Assembly (NCBI RefSeq): GCF_001921215.1
Contig: NZ_MSIF01000002.1
Span: 62,001 to 126,000 of the forward strand
Source: Actinophytocola xinjiangensis
Lineage (GTDB): Bacteria > Actinomycetota > Actinomycetes > Mycobacteriales > Pseudonocardiaceae
Direction: 5' to 3'
Length of the DNA stretch: 64,000 nt
Part shown: positions 8,755 to 35,737 of the stretch, one piece after another
How positions within the stretch are numbered: the first letter of the stretch is position 1
Layout: the number at the start of each line of letters is the position of its first letter
The notes under the pieces: model-generated
What the model saw: the letters and a program-made list of their open reading frames with translations, nothing else
Database searches by the model: none
Told to the model about the DNA's origin: nothing
Program-made: the position numbers and the translations under genes

Positions 8755-10113
8755 TCACTCGAGGTAGTCGCGCAGGACCTGCGAGCGGGACGGGTGACGC
8801 AGCTTGGACATCGTCTTCGACTCGATCTGGCGGATGCGCTCCCGCGTCACGCCGTAGACCTGGCCGATCTCGTCGAGCGTGCGGGGCTGGCCGTCGGTGA
8901 GGCCGAAGCGCAGCCGCACCACGCCCGCCTCGCGCTCGGACAGCGTCGCCAGCACCGACTGGAGCTGGTCCTGCAACAGCGTGAAACTCACGGCGTCGAC
9001 CGCGACGACCGCCTCGGAGTCCTCGATGAAGTCACCGAGCTGGCTGTCGCCCTCGTCGCCGATGGTCTGGTCGAGCGAGATGGGCTCCCGGGCGTACTGC
9101 TGGATCTCCAGCACCTTCTCCGGGGTGATGTCCATTTCCTTGGCGAGCTCCTCCGGCGTCGGCTCACGGCCGAGGTCCTGGAGCAGCTCACGCTGGATGC
9201 GCCCGAGCTTGTTGATCACCTCGACCATGTGGACCGGGATGCGGATGGTCCGCGCCTGGTCGGCCATGGCCCGGGTGATCGCCTGGCGGATCCACCACGT
9301 GGCGTAGGTGGAGAACTTGTAGCCCTTGGTGTAGTCGAACTTCTCGACCGCGCGGATCAGACCCAGGTTGCCCTCCTGGATCAGGTCGAGGAAGGCCATG
9401 CCGCGGCCGGTGTAGCGCTTGGCCAGCGAGACCACCAGGCGGAGGTTGGCCTCCAGCAGGTGGTTCTTGGCCCGCTCACCGTCGCGCACGATCCAGCGCA
9501 GGTCACGCCGCAGCTGCGGGACGAGCTTCTCCGAGGACTCCTCCTCGGCCTTGCGCACCCGCTCCGCCGCGTACAGGCCGGCCTCGATCCGCTTGGCGAG
9601 CTCGACCTCCTCCTCGGCGTTGAGCAGGGCGACCTTGCCGATCTGCTTGAGGTAGGCCCGGACGGAGTCGGCCGACGCGGTGAGCTCGGCGTCCTTGCGA
9701 GCCTGGCGCAGGGCCTCGGACTCCTCCTCGTCCCAGACGAAGTCGCCGTCCTTGGTCTCCTTGCCGGGCTTCTCCTCGGCGGGCTCCTCCTCGGTGACCG
9801 CCTCGTCGACCACGTCGATCTCGACGTCCTCAAGGTCCTCGAGATCGGGGGAGTCGAGGTCGGGCTCGTCGCCGTCGGGGCCGTCGCCCGCGGCGTCGGC
9901 CTTCTTGTTGGCGTCGGCGGCCTTGGTCTTCTTCGCGCCGGCCGCGGTCTTGGCGGTCTTGCGAGGCGCCCTGGTGGTGGTCTTGGCGGCCGGCTTCTTC
10001 GCGGTCTTCAAGGCAGGCTTCTCAGTCGGTTCGGTGTCCGGCTGAGCGTCCGCCGACTTGGCGGCGCTCGCCGAGGCGGTGGAGCGTCGGGTTGCGGTTC
10101 GTGCGGCTGCCAC
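8755..10113 (-). CDS. sigA: Principal RNA polymerase sigma factor (SigA/HrdB/RpoD)
   Basis: A 452-residue sigma-70 housekeeping factor. The N-terminal 120 residues are Lys/Ala-rich and then strongly acidic, replacing a classical region 1.1 as in other actinobacteria. Region 2 contains [20 protein letters not shown] and [16 protein letters not shown], which contact the -10 element and the core enzyme. Region 4 ends [17 protein letters not shown] and [13 protein letters not shown], for -35 recognition. GTG at 10113 is preferred (AAAGGG five nucleotides upstream, product [10 protein letters not shown]); GTG at 10143 would add ten residues. It lies next to ppgK, as in Mycobacterium tuberculosis (Rv2703-Rv2702). 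Confidence 0.97.
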
Positions 10114-25004: not shown

Positions 25005-27392
25005 TTACCTGTCGGTGGGCCACTGGGGTTGTTGGCCCGGCTGCGCGTGGCTCGGTTGCCGTGTTCCGGTGTCGCCTTCGGGCTGGGCTCCGGTGGGTGG
25101 GGTGGCGTGGCGCTGGTCGAGCACGGACCGGTGCGCCTCGGGCGGGGTGAAGAAGAGCGAGGCGCGGTTGGTTTCGCCGGGTGGCGTGAAACCGGAGGCC
25201 GGGGGCTCGCCGGGACGTGCGTGTCCCGACGCGGGGCCCGCCGGTGGGTGACTCTCGGCGTCGCCGGGAGATGGCGTGTTGCTCGGCCACTGGGCGCCGG
25301 CCCGAGGTCCGTTGGAGGTGATGCGCTTCGGAAGCGGGTATCCGGCGGGCGGGGTGCCCGGTCGCTGTTCCCCAGCGGGCGCCGTGGCGTTGTCCGGTTG
25401 CCGTGGGGTGAAGACGTGCGATGGTCGCGGACCGGTTCCGCCTGATGGCGTGACGTGGCTCGGCTGCTGAGCGGGTGGCTCGCTGGGGTTCGGGTCGGTT
25501 CCGCTGCTCGACGGGTCGCGGTCGTACAGACGGAACCCGCCGGGCGAGGTGACTCGGTTCGGCTGCCGGGTCCCGGTGGAGGACGGCTCGTGGCGGGAAC
25601 TGTCCGGTTGCCGCGGCGCGCTGGCCGTGTGGCCTGGCTGGCCGGTCGGTTGCTGGAACCCACCCGGCGGGGTGGTGCGACCTGGCTGACCGGTGACGGG
25701 TGAACCGGAACGGTCCGGTTGCTGGTGGCCGCCAGTGGGTCGGCCGGTGCCGGTCGAGTGGTCTGGTTGGTGTTCGCCGGTGGGTTGGCGGGTGCTGGTC
25801 GAGTGGTCTGGTTGGTGTTCGCCGGTGGGTTGGCGGGTGCTGGCCGAGTGGTCTGGTTGGTGGTGTTCGCCAGCGGACTGGCCGGTGCCGGTTGTCGCGG
25901 ACTGGTCCGGCTGGGGGAAACCGCCAGCCGGTGTGGGTCCGGTTGGTGCCGGACGATCCCCTGGCCGGCCGGGGCGGGTTCCGGGAGGAACCGGTGTGGC
26001 GCCGCCCGGATGGAATCCGCTGGGCGGGGTGGGGTGCGGTGCTCCGGGAGACGGTTGGTGCGCTCCGCCTGACGGCGGATGAGCGGCGGCGTCGCCGGGG
26101 AAGGGTCGTTGAAAGCCGCCGGCGGGGGTGTGGCCGTGAGGCCCAGGGTGGTGGGCGCCGGCTTGTGCCGGGTTGCCGGGACGGTGGAATCCGCCGGGCG
26201 GTGTCGCTTGAGGGCCGGCGGGTGCCGACTGGGCGCCGGCCGGGGGCGTCGCCTGGCCCGGTGGTGTTGCCTGGCTCGGTGGTGTTGGCCGCGCGCTGCC
26301 GGCGTGGGCTGTGCCGGAGGGGGCTGTGCCGGAGGAGGCCGTGTCGGAGGGGGCTGTGCCGGAGGGGGCGTCCGCTGGTGTTGCTCGCCGGAGGCCACCG
26401 GGGGGTGTCGCCTGGGGGCCGCCGGCGGCGGAGTGGTGGGGAGCGCCGGCCGGCGGTGCGGGGTGGCCTGGTTGGGGCAGACCGCTGGGGGGCGTTGCCC
26501 GGACGGGTTCGCCGTGGCTTGGTTGGGTGCCGGCGGGTGGAGTCGGGTGATGGGCTCCGGCGGGCGGTGCGGTGGTTCCGGGGTGGGTTTCGCCGGGCGC
26601 GGGGTGGGCTTCGGCCGGTGTGGGGGCGCCCGGTTGTTGGGTGCCGGTAGGCGAGGTTGCCGTGCCGGGTGCTGCGGTGCCGGGCGCTGCGGTGCCGGGT
26701 GTTGCCGTGCCGGGTGCTGCGGTGCCGGGCGCTGTGGGGCCGGGCGGTTGGGCGCCTCCGGCTGGTTGACCAGCTCCAGAAGGTTGGGCCGCTCCGGCTG
26801 GTTGACCGGCGCTGGAAGGTTGGGCTGCTCCCGCTGGTTGACCGGCGCTGGAAGGTTGGGCGGGGGCGGCTGGGTGGCCGGGTCCGGGGCCGCCGGTGGC
26901 TCCGGCTGGTTGGGTGAGTCCGGCGGGTGGGGTGGCGGCGGGCGGTTCGACTGGGGGCAGGCCGGCTCGTTGGCGGAACCAGTCGGGGATGTGTTCGTCC
27001 GCGCGGGGGAAGAAGCGCAACTCGTCGGCGAAGCCGATGGGGGGTGGGAGGCGGCGCCAGCGCGGTTCGGTGTCGGGCTCGAACTCGGCGTTGAAGGTGC
27101 TGGGCGGGTCCAGCAGGTACAGCGCCGACAGCCACGTACCCCGGCCCGGGCGGTACATGCCCTGGCGCAGCCGGCCCAGTCCCTCGACGACCTCCTGCGG
27201 CGGGCGCACCGGACGCGGCTCGCCGTCCGGGCCGCTGACCAGCACGTCGACCTCGATGTGGCGGCCGGCGGAGCGGTACTCGGTGCGTATGTGCGTCCAG
27301 TCCTGGCCGGCGACGGTCAGAAGTGCGCGCCCGATCTGTCGGATCAACCGATCCTGCTCGGCCTGATCCATCACCGGCTGCGGCTCGGTCAC
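25005..27392 (-). CDS. Large Pro/Gly/Thr/Gln-rich protein with small N-terminal domain
   Basis: A 795-residue protein. Residues 1-148 are a normal globular domain (LIRQIGRALLTVAG, EYRSAGRHIEVDVLV, YRPGRGTWLSALYLLDPP, FADELRFFPRADEHIPDWF). Its size and pattern recall small DUF600/YezG-type proteins met around actinobacterial TNT-type toxins; this is recalled resemblance, not proven. Residues 149-795 are low-complexity and presumably disordered, with 5-, 12- and 15-residue tandem repeats. There is no signal peptide or membrane helix. The GTG at 27392 has GGTGGGGA seven nucleotides upstream. It lies 57 bp downstream of the larger Pro-rich gene on the same strand, so the two are probably one transcript. 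Overlapping long plus-strand frames are judged to be shadows. Confidence 0.75.
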   Translation of the reverse strand: MTEPQPVMDQAEQDRLIRQIGRALLTVAGQDWTHIRTEYRSAGRHIEVDVLVSGPDGEPRPVRPPQEVVEGLGRLRQGMYRPGRGTWLSALYLLDPPSTFNAEFEPDTEPRWRRLPPPIGFADELRFFPRADEHIPDWFRQRAGLPPVEPPAATPPAGLTQPAGATGGPGPGHPAAPAQPSSAGQPAGAAQPSSAGQPAGAAQPSGAGQPAGGAQPPGPTAPGTAAPGTATPGTAAPGTAAPGTATSPTGTQQPGAPTPAEAHPAPGETHPGTTAPPAGAHHPTPPAGTQPSHGEPVRATPPSGLPQPGHPAPPAGAPHHSAAGGPQATPPGGLRRATPADAPSGTAPSDTASSGTAPSGTAHAGSARPTPPSQATPPGQATPPAGAQSAPAGPQATPPGGFHRPGNPAQAGAHHPGPHGHTPAGGFQRPFPGDAAAHPPSGGAHQPSPGAPHPTPPSGFHPGGATPVPPGTRPGRPGDRPAPTGPTPAGGFPQPDQSATTGTGQSAGEHHQPDHSASTRQPTGEHQPDHSTSTRQPTGEHQPDHSTGTGRPTGGHQQPDRSGSPVTGQPGRTTPPGGFQQPTGQPGHTASAPRQPDSSRHEPSSTGTRQPNRVTSPGGFRLYDRDPSSSGTDPNPSEPPAQQPSHVTPSGGTGPRPSHVFTPRQPDNATAPAGEQRPGTPPAGYPLPKRITSNGPRAGAQWPSNTPSPGDAESHPPAGPASGHARPGEPPASGFTPPGETNRASLFFTPPEAHRSVLDQRHATPPTGAQPEGDTGTRQPSHAQPGQQPQWPTDR
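25756..25890 (-). repeat. 45-bp tandem repeat in the smaller Pro-rich gene
   Basis: Units start at 25756, 25801 and 25846. The first two differ by one base and the third carries a 3-bp insertion. On the coding strand each unit gives the 15 residues QPTGEHQPDHSTSTR (about residues 505-550). Confidence 0.8.
26662..26736 (-). repeat. 15-bp tandem repeat (five units) in the smaller Pro-rich gene
   Basis: Units start at 26662, 26677, 26692, 26707 and 26722, each near GTGCCGGGTGCTGCG on the plus strand. They encode the pentapeptide PGTAA or PGTAT on the minus strand. Confidence 0.8.
26764..26871 (-). repeat. 36-bp tandem repeat (three units) in the smaller Pro-rich gene
   Basis: Units start at 26764, 26800 and 26836, each beginning GGTTGACC on the plus strand. 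They encode 12-residue units close to AQPSSAGQPAGA. Confidence 0.8.
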
Positions 27393-27449
27393 GACAAGAT
27401 CCCCACCCTCATGCTCATCTTGGCGATTCGACCTTACCGGGTCGAGATC

Positions 27450-30400
27450 TCACCGAGCGTGGTTAGGGCCGAAGGACAGGCACAACATCAGCGGATGCAC
27501 GTCCCACGTGGCCACCGCGAACCTCGTCAGGAGGCCCGCGGCCCGCAACGTCTGGTCAGTAGCCGGCGAAATCAGTGACTGACTGTTGCCGTTGACCGGT
27601 TGTTGCCCACTCCATATGGGTGCGCCAACCGGAACGGGTGAAGTTTCGACAACTGATTGCCACTCCTCCCCGTCGTCGGTGCGAAGCGTGATCGACACCC
27701 TCGGCGTCGGCGCCACTCCCCACCCGCCCGACTCGACCACCACGTACTCGTCCCGCTCGCCGGCGGCCAGCACGATCTCGCCCAGCCACCGGTACAACTC
27801 CGACGTCGCCCCATCGTCGACGGCGCCGAACGCCTCGTCCTCGGTCGCCTCGGCCAGACCCGTGGTGACACCGCCCAGCCGGCCACTCCGATCACGGAAA
27901 CGGTTCGGAAGGAACAGTGTCCGCGCGTCGGTGTCGACCGTGGCGGTCTCCCGGAACCGTGACTCCTCGACCTCGGAGCGGAACCCGAGACCGGCGCCGA
28001 GACGGGCTCGGACGATGTCGGGTTCGGTCAGACGCCAGTAGCTGGGCTTGTCATCCAGCCACAGCGTGATGTGGTCGCCGACCGGGAGGCCGAGAAGAGC
28101 TGTGAGGGCAGCGTTGGTGGGGCGGGGCGTGGGGGATGGAGGTGTCCAGGTGGTGGCGCGGGGGCGGGCCGGTTCGCTGACGGCCGTCGTGGCTGGGGCT
28201 GTCGTGAATGGGGCTGTGGGGGTTGGGGCGGGTCGCGTTGGGGTGGCGGGGCTTGGTGGGACGGGGGAATTGGGCGTTGGGGAGGTCGAGCTTGTTGGGG
28301 TGGGGGAGTTGGGTGTTGGGGTGGTCGAGGTTGGTGGGGTGGCGAAGGTTGGTGCTGGGGTGGGGGAGTTGGGTGTTGAGGTGGCCGAGCTTGGTGTTGA
28401 GGTGGTCGAGCCGGGTGCTGGTGCGGTTGAAGGGGCGCCCGGGGCGGTCTCGGTGCCGAACTCGGCGACCACCTGCCGGTAGGCGTCCTCGACGTTGGCG
28501 GCGGAGGTTGGATGTGTCGGTTCGGTTGGTGCTGGGTGGGCCGGATGTGCTGGGTTGGTGGCCGTGGCCACGGCTGGGGCGGTGACCGGGGTGACCGTTG
28601 GTTCGGAAATTGGGGGCGCCGGGGCGGTGTCGGGTGTTGCCGTCGGCGCGGTTGGGGTGGTCACGGGGGTTGGGGTGGTCACGGGGCCGGTTGGTGCTGG
28701 GTGAGGTGGCGCGGCGGGTGTTGGCTGCGCTGGCTCGGTTGGTGGGCGTGCTGGTTCGGGCGGGGTTGGGTGAGTGGGTTCGGTCGCGGCGGCCGGAGTT
28801 GGGTGTGGTGGGCCGGTCGTGATGGCTGTGGGGGGCGCCAGGTCGGTTGACGGTTCGGGGGCTGGTGTTGGTTCGGTGGGGTGGGGTGGTTCGGAAGTGG
28901 TGGTGTCGGGCGGGCCGTCGGTGGTGGTGTCGGTGTCGGGCGGGCCGTCGGTGGTGGTGGCGAACTGGGTCGGGGTGTGGTGGGCCGAGTGCTTGGCCCG
29001 GTCCGCCGGTGGCTCGGGGTCCGGGGTCGCGTTCGAGGCTGGGGGGTGAGCTGTTGGTGGTGGGGCGGTGGGGGTTTCGGGGGTGGCGGCGGCGTTGGAG
29101 ACCAGGGTCAGGATGGCGCCGGGGGCTGAGGGTTGGGGGACACCTCGGGGCGGGAGCGTGGCGTGGAAGGTCGCATTGGTGATCAGGGATGCGAACGCCG
29201 GGTCCGGCGGAATGTCCGATGTGGAGTGTCGAGCCGCGGCGGGTGTCACGTCGTCCCGGGGTTCGGCTGTGGTGGGCGGGTCGGGATCGGGTGCGGGGGT
29301 GTCGTCGGGCTGCGGGGTCACGTCGGGCTGGAGGGTGTCGTCGGGCTGGGGGGTGGGGTGGGACCAGGTGGTCGGGGGGTCGTCGGTGGCTTGGTGGGCC
29401 GCGCGCCGGCGACGGGGTGGGAGGCCGGTCGGGAACAGCGGGGTGGGTTCGGGGATGTCGCTGGAGGGCGAGGTGGTGTCGGGGGCCTGGTGGCGGCCCG
29501 TGGACGGGCCGGCTGGGCCGCCCACGGCGTTCACATCTGCGCTGCCAGGGCTGGCGGGACTGCCGGGGCTCGCAGGGTTGCCGGGGCTGCCAGGGCTGCC
29601 GGGGCTCGCAGGGCTGGCGGGGGTGGCAGAGGTGGTGGGGCTGGCAGAGGTGGCGGGGCTGGCAGAGGTGGCGGGGGTGAGCGGATCTGTGGCGGGGAGG
29701 TCGGTGTCGGCCGGCCGGTCACCGTCGGTCGGCGGGTCGGGGCGGGTGAGCGGGTTGCTGACCGTGGTGGGGATCCGGCCCGGCAGGTCGGTGGCGGTCG
29801 ACGTGTCTACGTGGGTTGGGTCGGGGGCGCTGGGCCTTGCCAGGTCGAAGTAGTCGGCGAAAGTGGGGTGCGGTGCGGTGCCGTGGGAAGGGCCGGCGTG
29901 GCCGTCGTGGGGTGGCTCGGCGTGGGGTGGCTCGGTGAGGCCGTAGCCGGTGAGGTCGTTGCCGGTGACGTCGTGGGTCAGCGCGGTCGGACCGGTGTGA
30001 CTGGGGTCGGTCGGGTCCGTGAAGTCGGGGCCGGGCGGGGTGCTGGGTGTGGAGATGTCGGGGTCCGCCGGGGCTGGTGGGTTGGCGGAGTCGGGGTGGG
30101 GTGGATCGGCGGCGGTGAGAAAGGCGAGCGCGGGAGAGGTGGCGGTCGCGAGAGGGGGGTTGGTGACGGTCGCGTCCGGTGGGGTGGCGGAAGGCGGCGG
30201 GGTGGGTTCGGTCGGGCTTTGAGGGCCTGCGGCGCCAGGGTTGGTGGGGCCGGGTGAGCCAGGCAGCTCGGTGTCGGGGCCGGCGCCGATGAGTGGACTG
30301 GGTTGGCTGAGGGGCGAGCTGGGCTGGTTGAGCGGGCGGCCGGGCTGGTTGAGCAGGGGGCTGGGCTGGTTGGACGGGGGGCTGGGCTGGCTGAGGGGCG

Positions 30401-31871
30401 AGCTGGGCTGGTTGAGGGGCGAGTCGGGCTGGCTGGCCGGGGAGCCGGGCAGGCTGAGCGGGGAGTTGGGCTGGTTGAGGGGCGAGTCGGGTTGGTTGAG
30501 CGGGGAGTTGGGCTGGTTGAGGGGCGAGTCGGGCTGGTTGAGCGGGGAGCTGGGCTGGTTGAGGGGCGAGTCGGGTTGGTTGAGCGGGGAGTTGGGCTGG
30601 TTGAGGGGCGAGTCGGGCTGGTTGGACGGGGAGCTGGGCTGGTTGAGCGGGGAGTCGGGTTGGTTGAGCGGGGAGTCGGGTTGGTTGGACGGGGAGTCGG
30701 GTTGGTTGGACGGGGAGCTGGGTTGGTTGAGCGGGGAGCTGGGTTGGTTGAGCGGGGAGCTGGGTTGGTTGAGCGGGGAGTCGGGTTGGTTGGACGGCGA
30801 GCTGGGCTGGTTGGCCGGGGAGCTGGGCTGGCTGAGCGGCGAGCCGGGCAGGCTGGCCGGGGAACCAGGCAGGCTGGCCGGGGAGCCGGGCTGGCTGAGG
30901 GGCGAGCTGGGCTGGTTGGACGGGGAGCCGGGCAGGGTGAGCGGCGAGCCGGGGTTGCTGGGTGGCGAACCGGGGTGGTCTGGCCGATCGGGGTGGACTT
31001 CGTCGGGTGGGTGTTGGCCGTTGGTGGTGGTGGTTCGGCCTTCGATGTCGGTGGGGGCTCGGGTGGGTAGGCCGGGGGTGGCCATGCCTCCGGGGCCGAG
31101 GGGGTCCGGGCCGCCGGGTCGGGTGGTCGACGCGCCGCCGGGCGGGATCTGCCAGACGGGCTGGGGGTCGGCGTCCAGCGGGGGGACGGCCCGCAGGCGC
31201 GACTCGCGCCGGGGGCGGGGGCTGGGCCGCTTGTCCTCTGGCTGGGTGTCACCCGAGAGGGGGACCAGGCGGGGGAAGGTCTCGGTGACGCCGGCGGTCG
31301 TCGGGTGGAACGGGGGGAGGCGGGCGAAGTCCGGGTCCACCCGGGCCGTGGCGATCATGTGGTGTGCCCAGGCTCGGGCGCGGGTCAACGGGTGGTCAGG
31401 GAACCGCGGGTCCCACTGGGCGTCGTCGGCCGGGTGGGAGGGGAGCAGGCCCGACACCTCCGGGGCGTACGGGTGGGGGCGTGCCTGGGCGGACACCGCA
31501 GCCTCGCGGACACCCGCCCACGTTCCGTCCTCGGCGCACTGGATCCTCAGCACGGCACTGCACGTCGCCTTGGGCAGGGTGAAGGCGGCGATGTACGCCT
31601 GGCCGGCCTCCTGGCCGGGGATCGGCACCTTGAGCAGCTGGAACAGCGCCGGCACCTGGTCCACCACCACCGCGTGGGCCTCGATCAGCGCGCCGATCTC
31701 GGACGTCTCGACCGCCAGGCGGTGGCGCAGCGGCCCCAGCTCGTCCAGTCCCGCCGGCAGGTCTGGTTCCATGCCGATGTACGACAGACTGACCTGGTCG
31801 CCGGTCCGCGGATCGAACCACGTCCGCTCGTCGTACTGCTCCATACCGGAGGTGTCGAAGGCAACAGGCAC
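27450..31871 (-). CDS. Giant Pro-rich protein with terminal globular domains and 32 heptads
   Basis: A 1473-residue protein of unrecognised function. Residues 1-200 form a globular domain (YDERTWFDPRTGD, LFQLLKVPIPGQEAGQAYI, HPLTRARAWAHHMIATARVD). Residues 302-525 are 32 perfect-length heptads of the form SPLNQPx (x is Ser, Asp, Asn or Gly). Residues 526-1250 are Pro/Thr/Ser/Ala-rich, with shorter ASPGSPG-like runs and Thr-Pro-Asn repeats. Residues 1252-1473 form a second globular domain (GDHITLWLDDKPSYWRL, YVVVESGGWGV). It has no signal peptide or membrane helix, so it is probably cytosolic. The GTG at 31871 lies six nucleotides after TAGACT, a -10-like box, suggesting a leaderless mRNA. It is divergent from dxs and followed by the second Pro-rich gene. 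Confidence 0.75.
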   Translation of the reverse strand: MPVAFDTSGMEQYDERTWFDPRTGDQVSLSYIGMEPDLPAGLDELGPLRHRLAVETSEIGALIEAHAVVVDQVPALFQLLKVPIPGQEAGQAYIAAFTLPKATCSAVLRIQCAEDGTWAGVREAAVSAQARPHPYAPEVSGLLPSHPADDAQWDPRFPDHPLTRARAWAHHMIATARVDPDFARLPPFHPTTAGVTETFPRLVPLSGDTQPEDKRPSPRPRRESRLRAVPPLDADPQPVWQIPPGGASTTRPGGPDPLGPGGMATPGLPTRAPTDIEGRTTTTNGQHPPDEVHPDRPDHPGSPPSNPGSPLTLPGSPSNQPSSPLSQPGSPASLPGSPASLPGSPLSQPSSPANQPSSPSNQPDSPLNQPSSPLNQPSSPLNQPSSPSNQPDSPSNQPDSPLNQPDSPLNQPSSPSNQPDSPLNQPNSPLNQPDSPLNQPSSPLNQPDSPLNQPNSPLNQPDSPLNQPNSPLSLPGSPASQPDSPLNQPSSPLSQPSPPSNQPSPLLNQPGRPLNQPSSPLSQPSPLIGAGPDTELPGSPGPTNPGAAGPQSPTEPTPPPSATPPDATVTNPPLATATSPALAFLTAADPPHPDSANPPAPADPDISTPSTPPGPDFTDPTDPSHTGPTALTHDVTGNDLTGYGLTEPPHAEPPHDGHAGPSHGTAPHPTFADYFDLARPSAPDPTHVDTSTATDLPGRIPTTVSNPLTRPDPPTDGDRPADTDLPATDPLTPATSASPATSASPTTSATPASPASPGSPGSPGNPASPGSPASPGSADVNAVGGPAGPSTGRHQAPDTTSPSSDIPEPTPLFPTGLPPRRRRAAHQATDDPPTTWSHPTPQPDDTLQPDVTPQPDDTPAPDPDPPTTAEPRDDVTPAAARHSTSDIPPDPAFASLITNATFHATLPPRGVPQPSAPGAILTLVSNAAATPETPTAPPPTAHPPASNATPDPEPPADRAKHSAHHTPTQFATTTDGPPDTDTTTDGPPDTTTSEPPHPTEPTPAPEPSTDLAPPTAITTGPPHPTPAAATEPTHPTPPEPARPPTEPAQPTPAAPPHPAPTGPVTTPTPVTTPTAPTATPDTAPAPPISEPTVTPVTAPAVATATNPAHPAHPAPTEPTHPTSAANVEDAYRQVVAEFGTETAPGAPSTAPAPGSTTSTPSSATSTPNSPTPAPTFATPPTSTTPTPNSPTPTSSTSPTPNSPVPPSPATPTRPAPTPTAPFTTAPATTAVSEPARPRATTWTPPSPTPRPTNAALTALLGLPVGDHITLWLDDKPSYWRLTEPDIVRARLGAGLGFRSEVEESRFRETATVDTDARTLFLPNRFRDRSGRLGGVTTGLAEATEDEAFGAVDDGATSELYRWLGEIVLAAGERDEYVVVESGGWGVAPTPRVSITLRTDDGEEWQSVVETSPVPVGAPIWSGQQPVNGNSQSLISPATDQTLRAAGLLTRFAVATWDVHPLMLCLSFGPNHAR
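30297..30968 (-). repeat. 21-bp tandem repeat array, 32 in-frame units
   Basis: The array is exactly 672 bp of 21-bp units with no frame break, encoding heptads from SPPSNPG (30948-30968) to SPLSQPS (30297-30317). Central units are nearly uniform (SPLNQPS, SPLNQPD, SPLNQPN); units near both edges are more varied. The plus strand carries runs of three or four G spaced 6-8 nt apart, so it could form G-quadruplexes. Confidence 0.92.
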
Positions 31872-31877
31872 GCCGGG

Positions 31878-31918
31878 AGTCTAGGGCCGGCACTCGCCGT
31901 GACGGACGCTCGTAGACT
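31878..31918. promoter_or_regulatory. Divergent promoters between the giant Pro-rich gene and dxs
   Basis: The hexamer TAGACT occurs on the minus strand at 31883-31878 and on the plus strand at 31913-31918. Each is placed as a -10 box for its own gene, giving a leaderless mRNA leftward and a leader of about 45 nt for dxs. No clear -35 boxes are seen. Confidence 0.45.
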
Positions 31919-33938: not shown

Positions 33939-34613
33939 GTGCGGATACTGATCGTCGAGGACGAGGAGCCCCTGGCCGAGGCCGTGGCCAGGGGGCTGCG
34001 CCGAGAGGGCATGGCGGTGGACGTCGCCCTGGACGGCGACGAGGGACACGAGAAGGCCACGGTCACCCGGTATGACGTGGTCGTGCTCGATCGTGACCTG
34101 CCTGGCATGTCCGGTGACGAACTGTGCCGGGAGATCGTCGCGTCCGGGCAGCTGACCCGGGTGCTCATGCTGACCGCGTCCGGGTCGGTCGCCGACCGGG
34201 TCGAGGGACTGTCGCTCGGCGCCGACGACTACCTGGCCAAGCCGTTCGCGTTCGACGAGCTGGTTGCCCGGGTGCGGGCGCTGGCCAGGCGGTCCACCCC
34301 GGTCACGCCGCCGGTGCTGCGGGCCGGTGATCTGGAACTTGACCCCGCGCGGCGCACCGTGACCCGGTCGGGCGCACCGGTCGAGCTGACCCGCAAGGAG
34401 TTCGGCGTGTTGGAGGTGCTGCTCGCCGCGTCCGGGTCGGTGGTGAGCAGCGAGGAGCTCCTGGAGCGGGTCTGGGACGAGCACGCCGACCCGTTCACCA
34501 CAACCGTTCGAGTGACGGTGATGACGCTGCGTAAGAAGCTGGGTGAGCCGGGGATCATCGACACCGTCGTCGGGTCGGGGTACCGGGTGCCGGCCGCGGC
34601 CGCCGGCGCGTGA
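33939..34613 (+). CDS. OmpR-family response regulator
   Basis: A 224-residue two-component regulator. The receiver domain (1-115) has the acidic pair in VEDEEP, phospho-acceptor Asp in VVLDRDLPG (about residue 51), the Thr of MLTAS and Lys of AKPF. The C-terminal winged helix (about 125-220) has VELTRKEFGVLEVLL and RVTVMTLRKKLG. Its TGA overlaps the GTG start of the histidine kinase gene (GTGA). The stimulus and targets are unknown. This pair lies just downstream of dxs and is not part of the mycobacterial backbone. Confidence 0.92.
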   Translation: MRILIVEDEEPLAEAVARGLRREGMAVDVALDGDEGHEKATVTRYDVVVLDRDLPGMSGDELCREIVASGQLTRVLMLTASGSVADRVEGLSLGADDYLAKPFAFDELVARVRALARRSTPVTPPVLRAGDLELDPARRTVTRSGAPVELTRKEFGVLEVLLAASGSVVSSEELLERVWDEHADPFTTTVRVTVMTLRKKLGEPGIIDTVVGSGYRVPAAAAGA

Positions 34614-35737
34614 CCCACCCCCGGCGCGGTCCCGGCCTGCGCGCCAGGATCACGCTGCTCGCGACCGCGCTGGTCGCCCTGGTCTCGGTGCTGCTGCTGT
34701 GGCTGGCCTGGGCGCTGGCGTCCGGGGCGGTGACCGTGCCGTCGCTGCCGGCCGGGACGACCGTGCTGGTCGACGGGGTGCCGGTGAAGGCCGAGAAACT
34801 GGCCGAGGTCCTGCGTGACCAGGCACGGACCAGGGTGCTGGTCGCCGGCTCGATCGCGTTCGTGTGCGTGCTGGTCGCGACGGCGCTGCTGGCGTGGACG
34901 TTCACCGGCCGCATGCTCAAGCCGCTGCGTGACGTCACCGGGACCGCGCGCCGGCTGTCGGCCGAGTCGCTCGGTGAACGCATCGCACTGCGCGGCCCGC
35001 GCGACGAGGTCGCCGAGCTGGCCGACACGTTCGACGCGATGCTCGACCGGTTGCAGGCGACGTTCGCCGCCCAGCGCCAGTTCGTCGCGAATGCCTCACA
35101 CGAGCTAAGGACCCCACTTTCGGTTATTCGTACCGAACTCGACGTGACCCTCGCCGACCCGAACGCCGACGCCGACGAGCTGCGCCGCATGGCCGGCGTC
35201 GTGCGGGCGGCGACCCTGCGCGCCGGCCAACTGGTGGAGGCACTGCTCCTGCTGGCGAGGACCGACGGCATGGGGCTGGCCGTGGTGGAACCGGTCGACC
35301 TGGCCGCCGTGGTGGGTTCGGCGTGGCGCCCGCTCGGCCAGGACGCGGCCGGCCGGGGACTGTCGGTGACGTTCAACGACCTGCCGGCGCCGGTCAGGGG
35401 TGACCCGGCGCTGCTGGAGCGGGTGGCGGGCAACCTGCTGGAGAACGCCGTGCGGCACAACGTCGACGGCGGCTGGATCGAGGTGTGGACCGGCGCCGGG
35501 CCGGAGTGGTCGAGCCTGCGGGTGGCGTCGTCGGGAGCGGCGGTCGACCCGGAACGGGTGGACGAGCTGTTCGAGTCGTTCCGCCGGGGCGGGGTGGACC
35601 GGACGGCGCACACCGGGACCGGGCTGGGCCTGTCGATCGTGAAGGCGGTGGTGTTGGCGCACCGGGGAATGGTGGGCGCGGAGGCGGTCCCCGGTGGCGG
35701 GCTGACGGTGACCGTGCACCTGCCGGTCGCGCGCTGA
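34610..35737 (+). CDS. Sensor histidine kinase
   Basis: A 375-residue membrane kinase. TM1 (about 16-38) and TM2 (about 78-97) flank a short extracytoplasmic loop of about 40 residues. HAMP follows (GRMLKPLRDVTGTARRL), then HisKA with the phosphorylated His in ASHELRTPLSVI (about residue 164), and HATPase_c with the N box NLLENAVRHN and G box GTGLGLSIVKAV. It overlaps the response regulator by 4 nt, so the cognate pair is co-translated. The small sensor loop suggests membrane-proximal sensing; the ligand is unknown. Confidence 0.92.
   Translation: MTHPRRGPGLRARITLLATALVALVSVLLLWLAWALASGAVTVPSLPAGTTVLVDGVPVKAEKLAEVLRDQARTRVLVAGSIAFVCVLVATALLAWTFTGRMLKPLRDVTGTARRLSAESLGERIALRGPRDEVAELADTFDAMLDRLQATFAAQRQFVANASHELRTPLSVIRTELDVTLADPNADADELRRMAGVVRAATLRAGQLVEALLLLARTDGMGLAVVEPVDLAAVVGSAWRPLGQDAAGRGLSVTFNDLPAPVRGDPALLERVAGNLLENAVRHNVDGGWIEVWTGAGPEWSSLRVASSGAAVDPERVDELFESFRRGGVDRTAHTGTGLGLSIVKAVVLAHRGMVGAEAVPGGGLTVTVHLPVAR

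Follow-up and report, generated by a model that had tools for sequence, protein, structure and literature searches.

A conserved gene pair beside dxs in Actinophytocola xinjiangensis with predicted EsaG-type and Mog1-type domains and low-complexity extensions

A window of 64,000 nucleotides from the 9.5-Mb genome of Actinophytocola xinjiangensis (G000; contig NZ_MSIF01000002.1, positions 62,001 to 126,000) contains two adjacent genes next to dxs. The large protein consists of an N-terminal domain (N), a Pro-rich linker and a C-terminal domain (C), whereas the small protein consists of one globular domain followed by a low-complexity tail. The facts favour a protein-binding pair, in which a head of predicted EsaG-type fold carries a tail and a head of predicted Mog1-type fold is tethered to a second head. 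We tentatively propose, with well under even confidence, that the pair is a cytosolic protein-binding adaptor or chaperone module, part of which was taken from toxin operons of the type VII secretion system (T7SS).

Conservation of the pair and of its reading frames

Both reading frames start with GTG on the minus strand, 57 bp apart, and are flanked by an RlmD/RumA-type methyltransferase gene (TIGR00479, above its cut-off) and by dxs (TIGR00204). Sizes, strand, spacing and flanks agree with a preliminary description made from the sequence alone. A YezG gene adjoins the large gene in 10/10 complete dxs loci, which span four genera (G000, G001, G002, G003, G005, G013, G035, G049, G599 and G626); the dxs loci of G004 and G584 were left out of the count because of contig ends, and in G032 the YezG gene stands alone at dxs. 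The linker is hypervariable in length, ranging from 53 to 1063 aa within Actinophytocola, from 99 to 1891 aa within one other genus and from 6 to 1891 aa overall. It exceeds 30 aa in 9/10 complete loci, and the tail of the small protein exceeds 70 aa in 9/10. Nine of the ten large proteins form one clade in the tree; the exception is the Labedaea copy, whose placement elsewhere carries a long-branch warning.

N and C share one open frame in all ten complete dxs loci (open reading frames, ORFs, were selected for this test as holding both domains, and no dxs locus was met with the domains in different frames). Away from dxs, the large genes of L069 and G619 are split. The window protein is 50–81% identical to 18 aligned relatives over N and 26–65% identical to 15 aligned relatives over C. 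Since both domains are conserved and stay in a common open frame however long the linker between them, the large reading frame is, judged by these alignments, real and no artefact of the 73% GC content. The gene caller overlooked Pro-rich genes, and the YezG gene of L181 was recovered only by a six-frame search.

The linker (1063 residues) contains 26% Pro, 14% Thr, 11% Ser and 11% Ala, with 2 Lys, and the tail of the small protein contains 22% Pro, 16% Gly and 14% Ala; both are probably disordered. Because the highest 19-residue Kyte-Doolittle means are 1.46 (large protein) and 0.29 (small protein), a membrane helix is not indicated in either sequence. No signal peptide was evident in either protein on inspection by eye. 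Both points were anticipated by the preliminary description, and a cytosolic location seems probable. That description had overlooked a 7-residue tandem S-P repeat in the linker (27 matches to one pattern and 31 TRF copies). Phmmer aligns this repeat and the linker to RNA polymerase II tails; homology was rejected, the likeness being low-complexity convergence.

The small protein and its relatives in T7SS operons

The predicted structure of the small-protein domain has the EsaG/DUF600 fold, supported for residues 8–107, which bears out the earlier remark that this domain recalls YezG/DUF600. The window protein gave no match to PF04634 (DUF600) at E <= 1; a paralogue from the same genome reached E 0.0083, below the curated cut-off. 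Matches to the domain were found in 35/60 genomes. Its closest kin are proteins here named YezG_X, which combine a YezG-like domain with a second domain X and are encoded in T7SS toxin operons of Pseudonocardiaceae. The domain is 59% identical to that of the same-genome YezG_X and 43% identical to that of a TNT protein (L046). In a tree of 54 domains, 12 dxs-locus proteins and 10/12 YezG_X proteins form one clade (99/99), with the TNT-fused and short YezG domains outside it; several deeper forks are weak. The X domain was not found in 12/12 dxs-locus regions, in which YezG was present and the controls were detected.

PF14021 (TNT) had no match in either window protein, nor had any toxin family, as expected from the earlier statement that no toxin domain is present; two same-genome paralogues of the small protein do contain PF14021. 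The suggested TNT link therefore holds in so far as TNT proteins of this genome share the YezG-like domain. A TNT relationship of the small protein itself was rejected, given the position of the TNT-fused domains in the tree. Genes of the YezG-X-linker-TNT type seem widespread in the family (e.g. L046 6540–9536, minus strand; L166; L167), and these three loci, where a TNT-like domain was found, have an mdh-like gene (named by eye) nearby. At E <= 1e-70, the YezG_X profile matched 95/120 genomes, many in open frames of 700–1480 aa.

The fetched operons run from YbaB through EspC, a large effector and one or more immunity genes to YezG_X. YbaB and EspC of L162 and the Imm49 gene of L168 scored above Pfam cut-offs. 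Six of seven effectors scanned had WXG100, PPE or EspA/EspE matches in their N-terminal part, only one above cut-off, and one of the seven had an Endonuclea_NS_2 domain at its C-terminus. Thirty standalone YezG_X loci were examined (10 fetched earlier and 20 hand-chosen from the match list). An effector gene was present in 21; five (L169, L186, L187, L189 and L196) had YbaB and/or EspC but no called effector, and four (L172, L173, L174 and L205) had neither effector nor YbaB/EspC. At L186 a 1474-aa ORF was tagged immunity-like, so that an effector went uncounted. Single-linkage clustering of the 21 effectors by their last 150 residues gives five classes (13, 4, 2, 1 and 1 members). Between the effector gene and YezG_X lies an Imm49-type gene in 5 loci and a YezG lacking X in 14; in 2 (L194 and L202) no gene was called there. 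YezG_X is not always last, since another YezG gene follows it at L203. That YezG_X stays while the toxin and the immunity gene change argues for an accessory role, short of proof. The same-genome operon (L045, 7266–14116) comprises YbaB, EspC, a 1465-aa effector, a 293-aa immunity gene (its L168 homologue is Imm49, PF15575) and YezG_X.

EsaG and YezG (DUF600, PF04634) are antitoxins of T7SS nucleases, described as antitoxins in an excerpt of PMC9616950. The window protein differs from them by its long Pro/Gly tail, its neighbour without a recognised toxin domain and its accessory-like closest kin. The dxs pair differs in turn from YezG_X operons by lacking a detectable X domain and YbaB-EspC-effector genes alongside. 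It is decidedly improbable that the small protein serves as an orphan immunity factor against nuclease toxins of kin, with an incidental neighbour: the predicted EsaG fold would suit such a role, as would the YezG genes that stand in tandem next to toxin genes in relatives and resemble the strings of esaG genes in S. aureus (PMC9484751, excerpt), but the protein groups with YezG_X, found beside five effector classes and Imm49-type genes, and not with short YezG, and its neighbour gene is not exchanged.

Domains and distribution of the large protein

Compact relatives of 413–429 aa indicate that the large protein is N plus C, between which the Pro-rich part has been inserted. A fold search with the predicted structure returned the overall Mog1/PsbP/DcrB fold for N, which is thus predicted to be a Mog1/PsbP/DcrB-like domain. 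N was found in 36/200 genomes within the family and in 4/396 genomes of a phylum-wide survey (two of these four weak); the C-domain search matched 16/150 genomes, including the window's own. Of 120 relatives found in the genome scan 80 were kept, 40 loci with N and C and 40 with N only (among the latter, L088 is truncated by a contig end). The N-C architecture is present in Lentzea, Saccharothrix, Umezawaea, Kutzneria, Gandjariella, Labedaea, Herbihabitans and Actinophytocola. Three Lentzea have N-C-C proteins (a fourth, L069, is split across two frames), and proteins with N only come from Nocardia (where some have tails of up to 533 aa), Streptomyces, Actinosynnema and one Lentzea. In Lentzea/Umezawaea loci (L055, L057, L049 and others) a compact N-C gene is flanked by a PhoD-like gene (identified by eye) and a pullulanase-type gene of ~1820–1880 aa; L179 (G580) has remnants of a broken N-C gene at 8972–9447, away from dxs.

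No match was obtained in Pfam, NCBIfam or PADLOC for either window protein, in line with the earlier view that the full proteins belong to no characterised family, and a known defence system was rejected on the empty PADLOC result. A known domain in N or C was likewise rejected, since Pfam searches over 51 members gave only scattered matches, in 1–2 members each (best E 0.019). Structure and profile searches with the globular parts, as the preliminary description had suggested, assigned predicted folds to N and to the small-protein domain and left C without a family match. The fold search with a relative's model holding N and C returned a list filled by N-domain matches; EspG, EspK and nuclease folds were not in the fold lists, which say nothing on C, barely sampled there. 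By eye, the order of strands and helices in C resembles that of N in a relative's model; a duplication of one domain was rejected, the profile comparison probability being below 1%. N-profile matches to IgG-binding protein A (best E 1.9e-4, 33 residues) were taken as chance, with no stretch passing alone.

Several proteins of the Mog1/PsbP/DcrB fold are secreted proteins, lipoproteins or type VI secretion system chaperones. N is about 5–14% identical to DcrB, EagT6, SciW, LpqN, Apa and MTC28; a signal peptide is not evident in the window protein. EspK, the EspB chaperone of mycobacterial ESX-1, is alike in having two independent globular ends and a low-complexity linker proposed as a rope. The N-terminus of EspK, however, carries a WxG motif and its C-terminus an alpha/beta/alpha sandwich with a helix bundle, whereas the window N domain is Mog1-like by prediction, with one WAG triplet and no W there in aligned relatives. 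EspK did not appear among the large protein's PDB sequence matches, and membership of the pair in the EspK family was rejected, the N-terminal WxG region being unmatched.

Interpretation of the pair

In the proposed module, the small protein would keep the EsaG/YezG fold of YezG_X, whose gene follows the toxin and immunity genes in T7SS operons, without X and with a low-complexity tail. The large protein would provide two globular heads, a Mog1/PsbP/DcrB-like domain for binding and a second one, at the two ends of a rope-like linker. Each head may hold one partner, either a T7SS substrate or a secretion ATPase, and the linkers would draw the held partners close, in the manner suggested for EspK and EspB; the two proteins might also bind each other.

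An N part, a low-complexity linker and a C part are also the plan of polymorphic toxins. C could be a toxin, perhaps decayed, which the YezG protein neutralises as EsaG does EsaD. The order of effector and then YezG gene recalls the T7SS operons, and the antitoxin function of EsaG and YezG (PMC9616950, excerpt) would fit. This is nevertheless unlikely: C is conserved and not exchanged, no catalytic set is evident among its invariant residues (G, R, A, P and W), toxin families gave no match, and N-C copies away from dxs have no YezG neighbour.

This last result, obtained in the DNA surrounding each of 34/34 named N-C loci, is also one of the two chief facts against the adaptor module. The other is the failure to find any YbaB-, EspC- or T7SS-effector-like gene in the window and 11 other dxs-locus regions; the controls L045 and L162 were detected. 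The co-occurrence of the pair, raised in the preliminary description, is constant at complete dxs loci with a large gene and was not seen at the 34 named N-C loci elsewhere. In five of the 34 loci, all from Lentzea (L058, L059, L064, L070 and L079), a short T7SS-effector-like gene (346–453 aa) lies within ~9 kb, upstream of the compact N-C gene and on the opposite strand to it, in some cases with EspC- or YbaB-like genes.

It is possible, if somewhat doubtful, that the pair is unrelated to secretion, the large protein being a Mog1/DcrB-type housekeeping factor and the small one a domesticated YezG that landed by chance beside dxs. N alone in Nocardia and Streptomyces, the varied contexts of N-C proteins, the promoter-like element of the small gene, its solo occurrence in G032 and the 12/12 dxs-locus regions without T7SS-like genes would all agree with this. 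Chance, however, does not readily accommodate an adjacency kept in every complete locus across four genera despite linkers of 6 to 1891 aa, nor the fact that in most of these loci both proteins have low-complexity extensions.

The earlier interpretation of the pair as large intracellular scaffolds with a hint of secretion is supported in part. A bolder and rather unlikely extension is that in Pseudonocardiaceae the EsaG fold, once a cognate antitoxin, became a general accessory of the T7SS (YezG_X) that remains in toxin operons as their toxins and immunity proteins are replaced. The dxs pair would be its free-standing, chromosomally fixed form, a two-rope chaperone with linker length almost unconstrained and a heptad array of S-P type that superficially resembles the RNA polymerase II tail.

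Features of the locus

TANNNT, a pattern known from leaderless actinobacterial promoters, occurs 6–7 nt before the large start codon in 9/9 loci printed, and GTA[AG]GGT occurs upstream of the small gene in 7/8 paired loci printed (exception L066) and of the solo G032 gene. These motifs and TAGACT are read as promoter-like, not as demonstrated promoters. A two-component system adjoins dxs (window 33939–35737); in most of the relatives' dxs loci its response regulator is likewise encoded close to dxs.

Table 1. Coordinates of features in the window
Feature	Position	Strand	Basis
Large gene, N domain + Pro-rich linker + C domain, 1473 aa	27450..31871	-	
N domain, residues 1-193, predicted Mog1/PsbP/DcrB-like fold	31293..31871	-	
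Pro/Thr/Ser/Ala linker, 1063 aa, hypervariable length among species	28104..31292	-	
Tandem array, 21-bp / 7-aa unit (SPLNQPS-like), ~31 copies	30300..30953	-	
C domain, residues 1257-1473, without family match	27453..28103	-	Alignment of relatives; modelled together with N domain in a relative
Small gene, YezG/EsaG-like domain + Pro/Gly/Ala tail, 795 aa	25005..27392	-	
YezG/EsaG-like domain, residues 1-146 (predicted fold supported for residues 8-107)	26955..27392	-	
Low-complexity tail of small protein; X domain of T7SS relatives not found	25008..26912	-	
-10-like TAGACT, 6 nt upstream of large start codon, putative leaderless-type promoter	31878..31883	-	
-10-like TAGACT, putative, for dxs, divergent from large gene	31913..31918	+	
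-10-like TAAGGT upstream of small gene, putative own promoter	27431..27436	-	

Significance

Among the literature matches listed, which scarcely cover subscription journals, nothing was found on the dxs pair or YezG_X. Two unannotated giant genes are now placed in a testable frame, and the N-C family gains a predicted fold for its N domain. The linkers of 6 to 1891 aa form a natural length series joining the same two domains. Actinobacterial T7SS toxin operons appear to contain a constant gene of predicted EsaG fold, and whether it acts as a chaperone, a regulator or a broad immunity factor becomes a concrete question.
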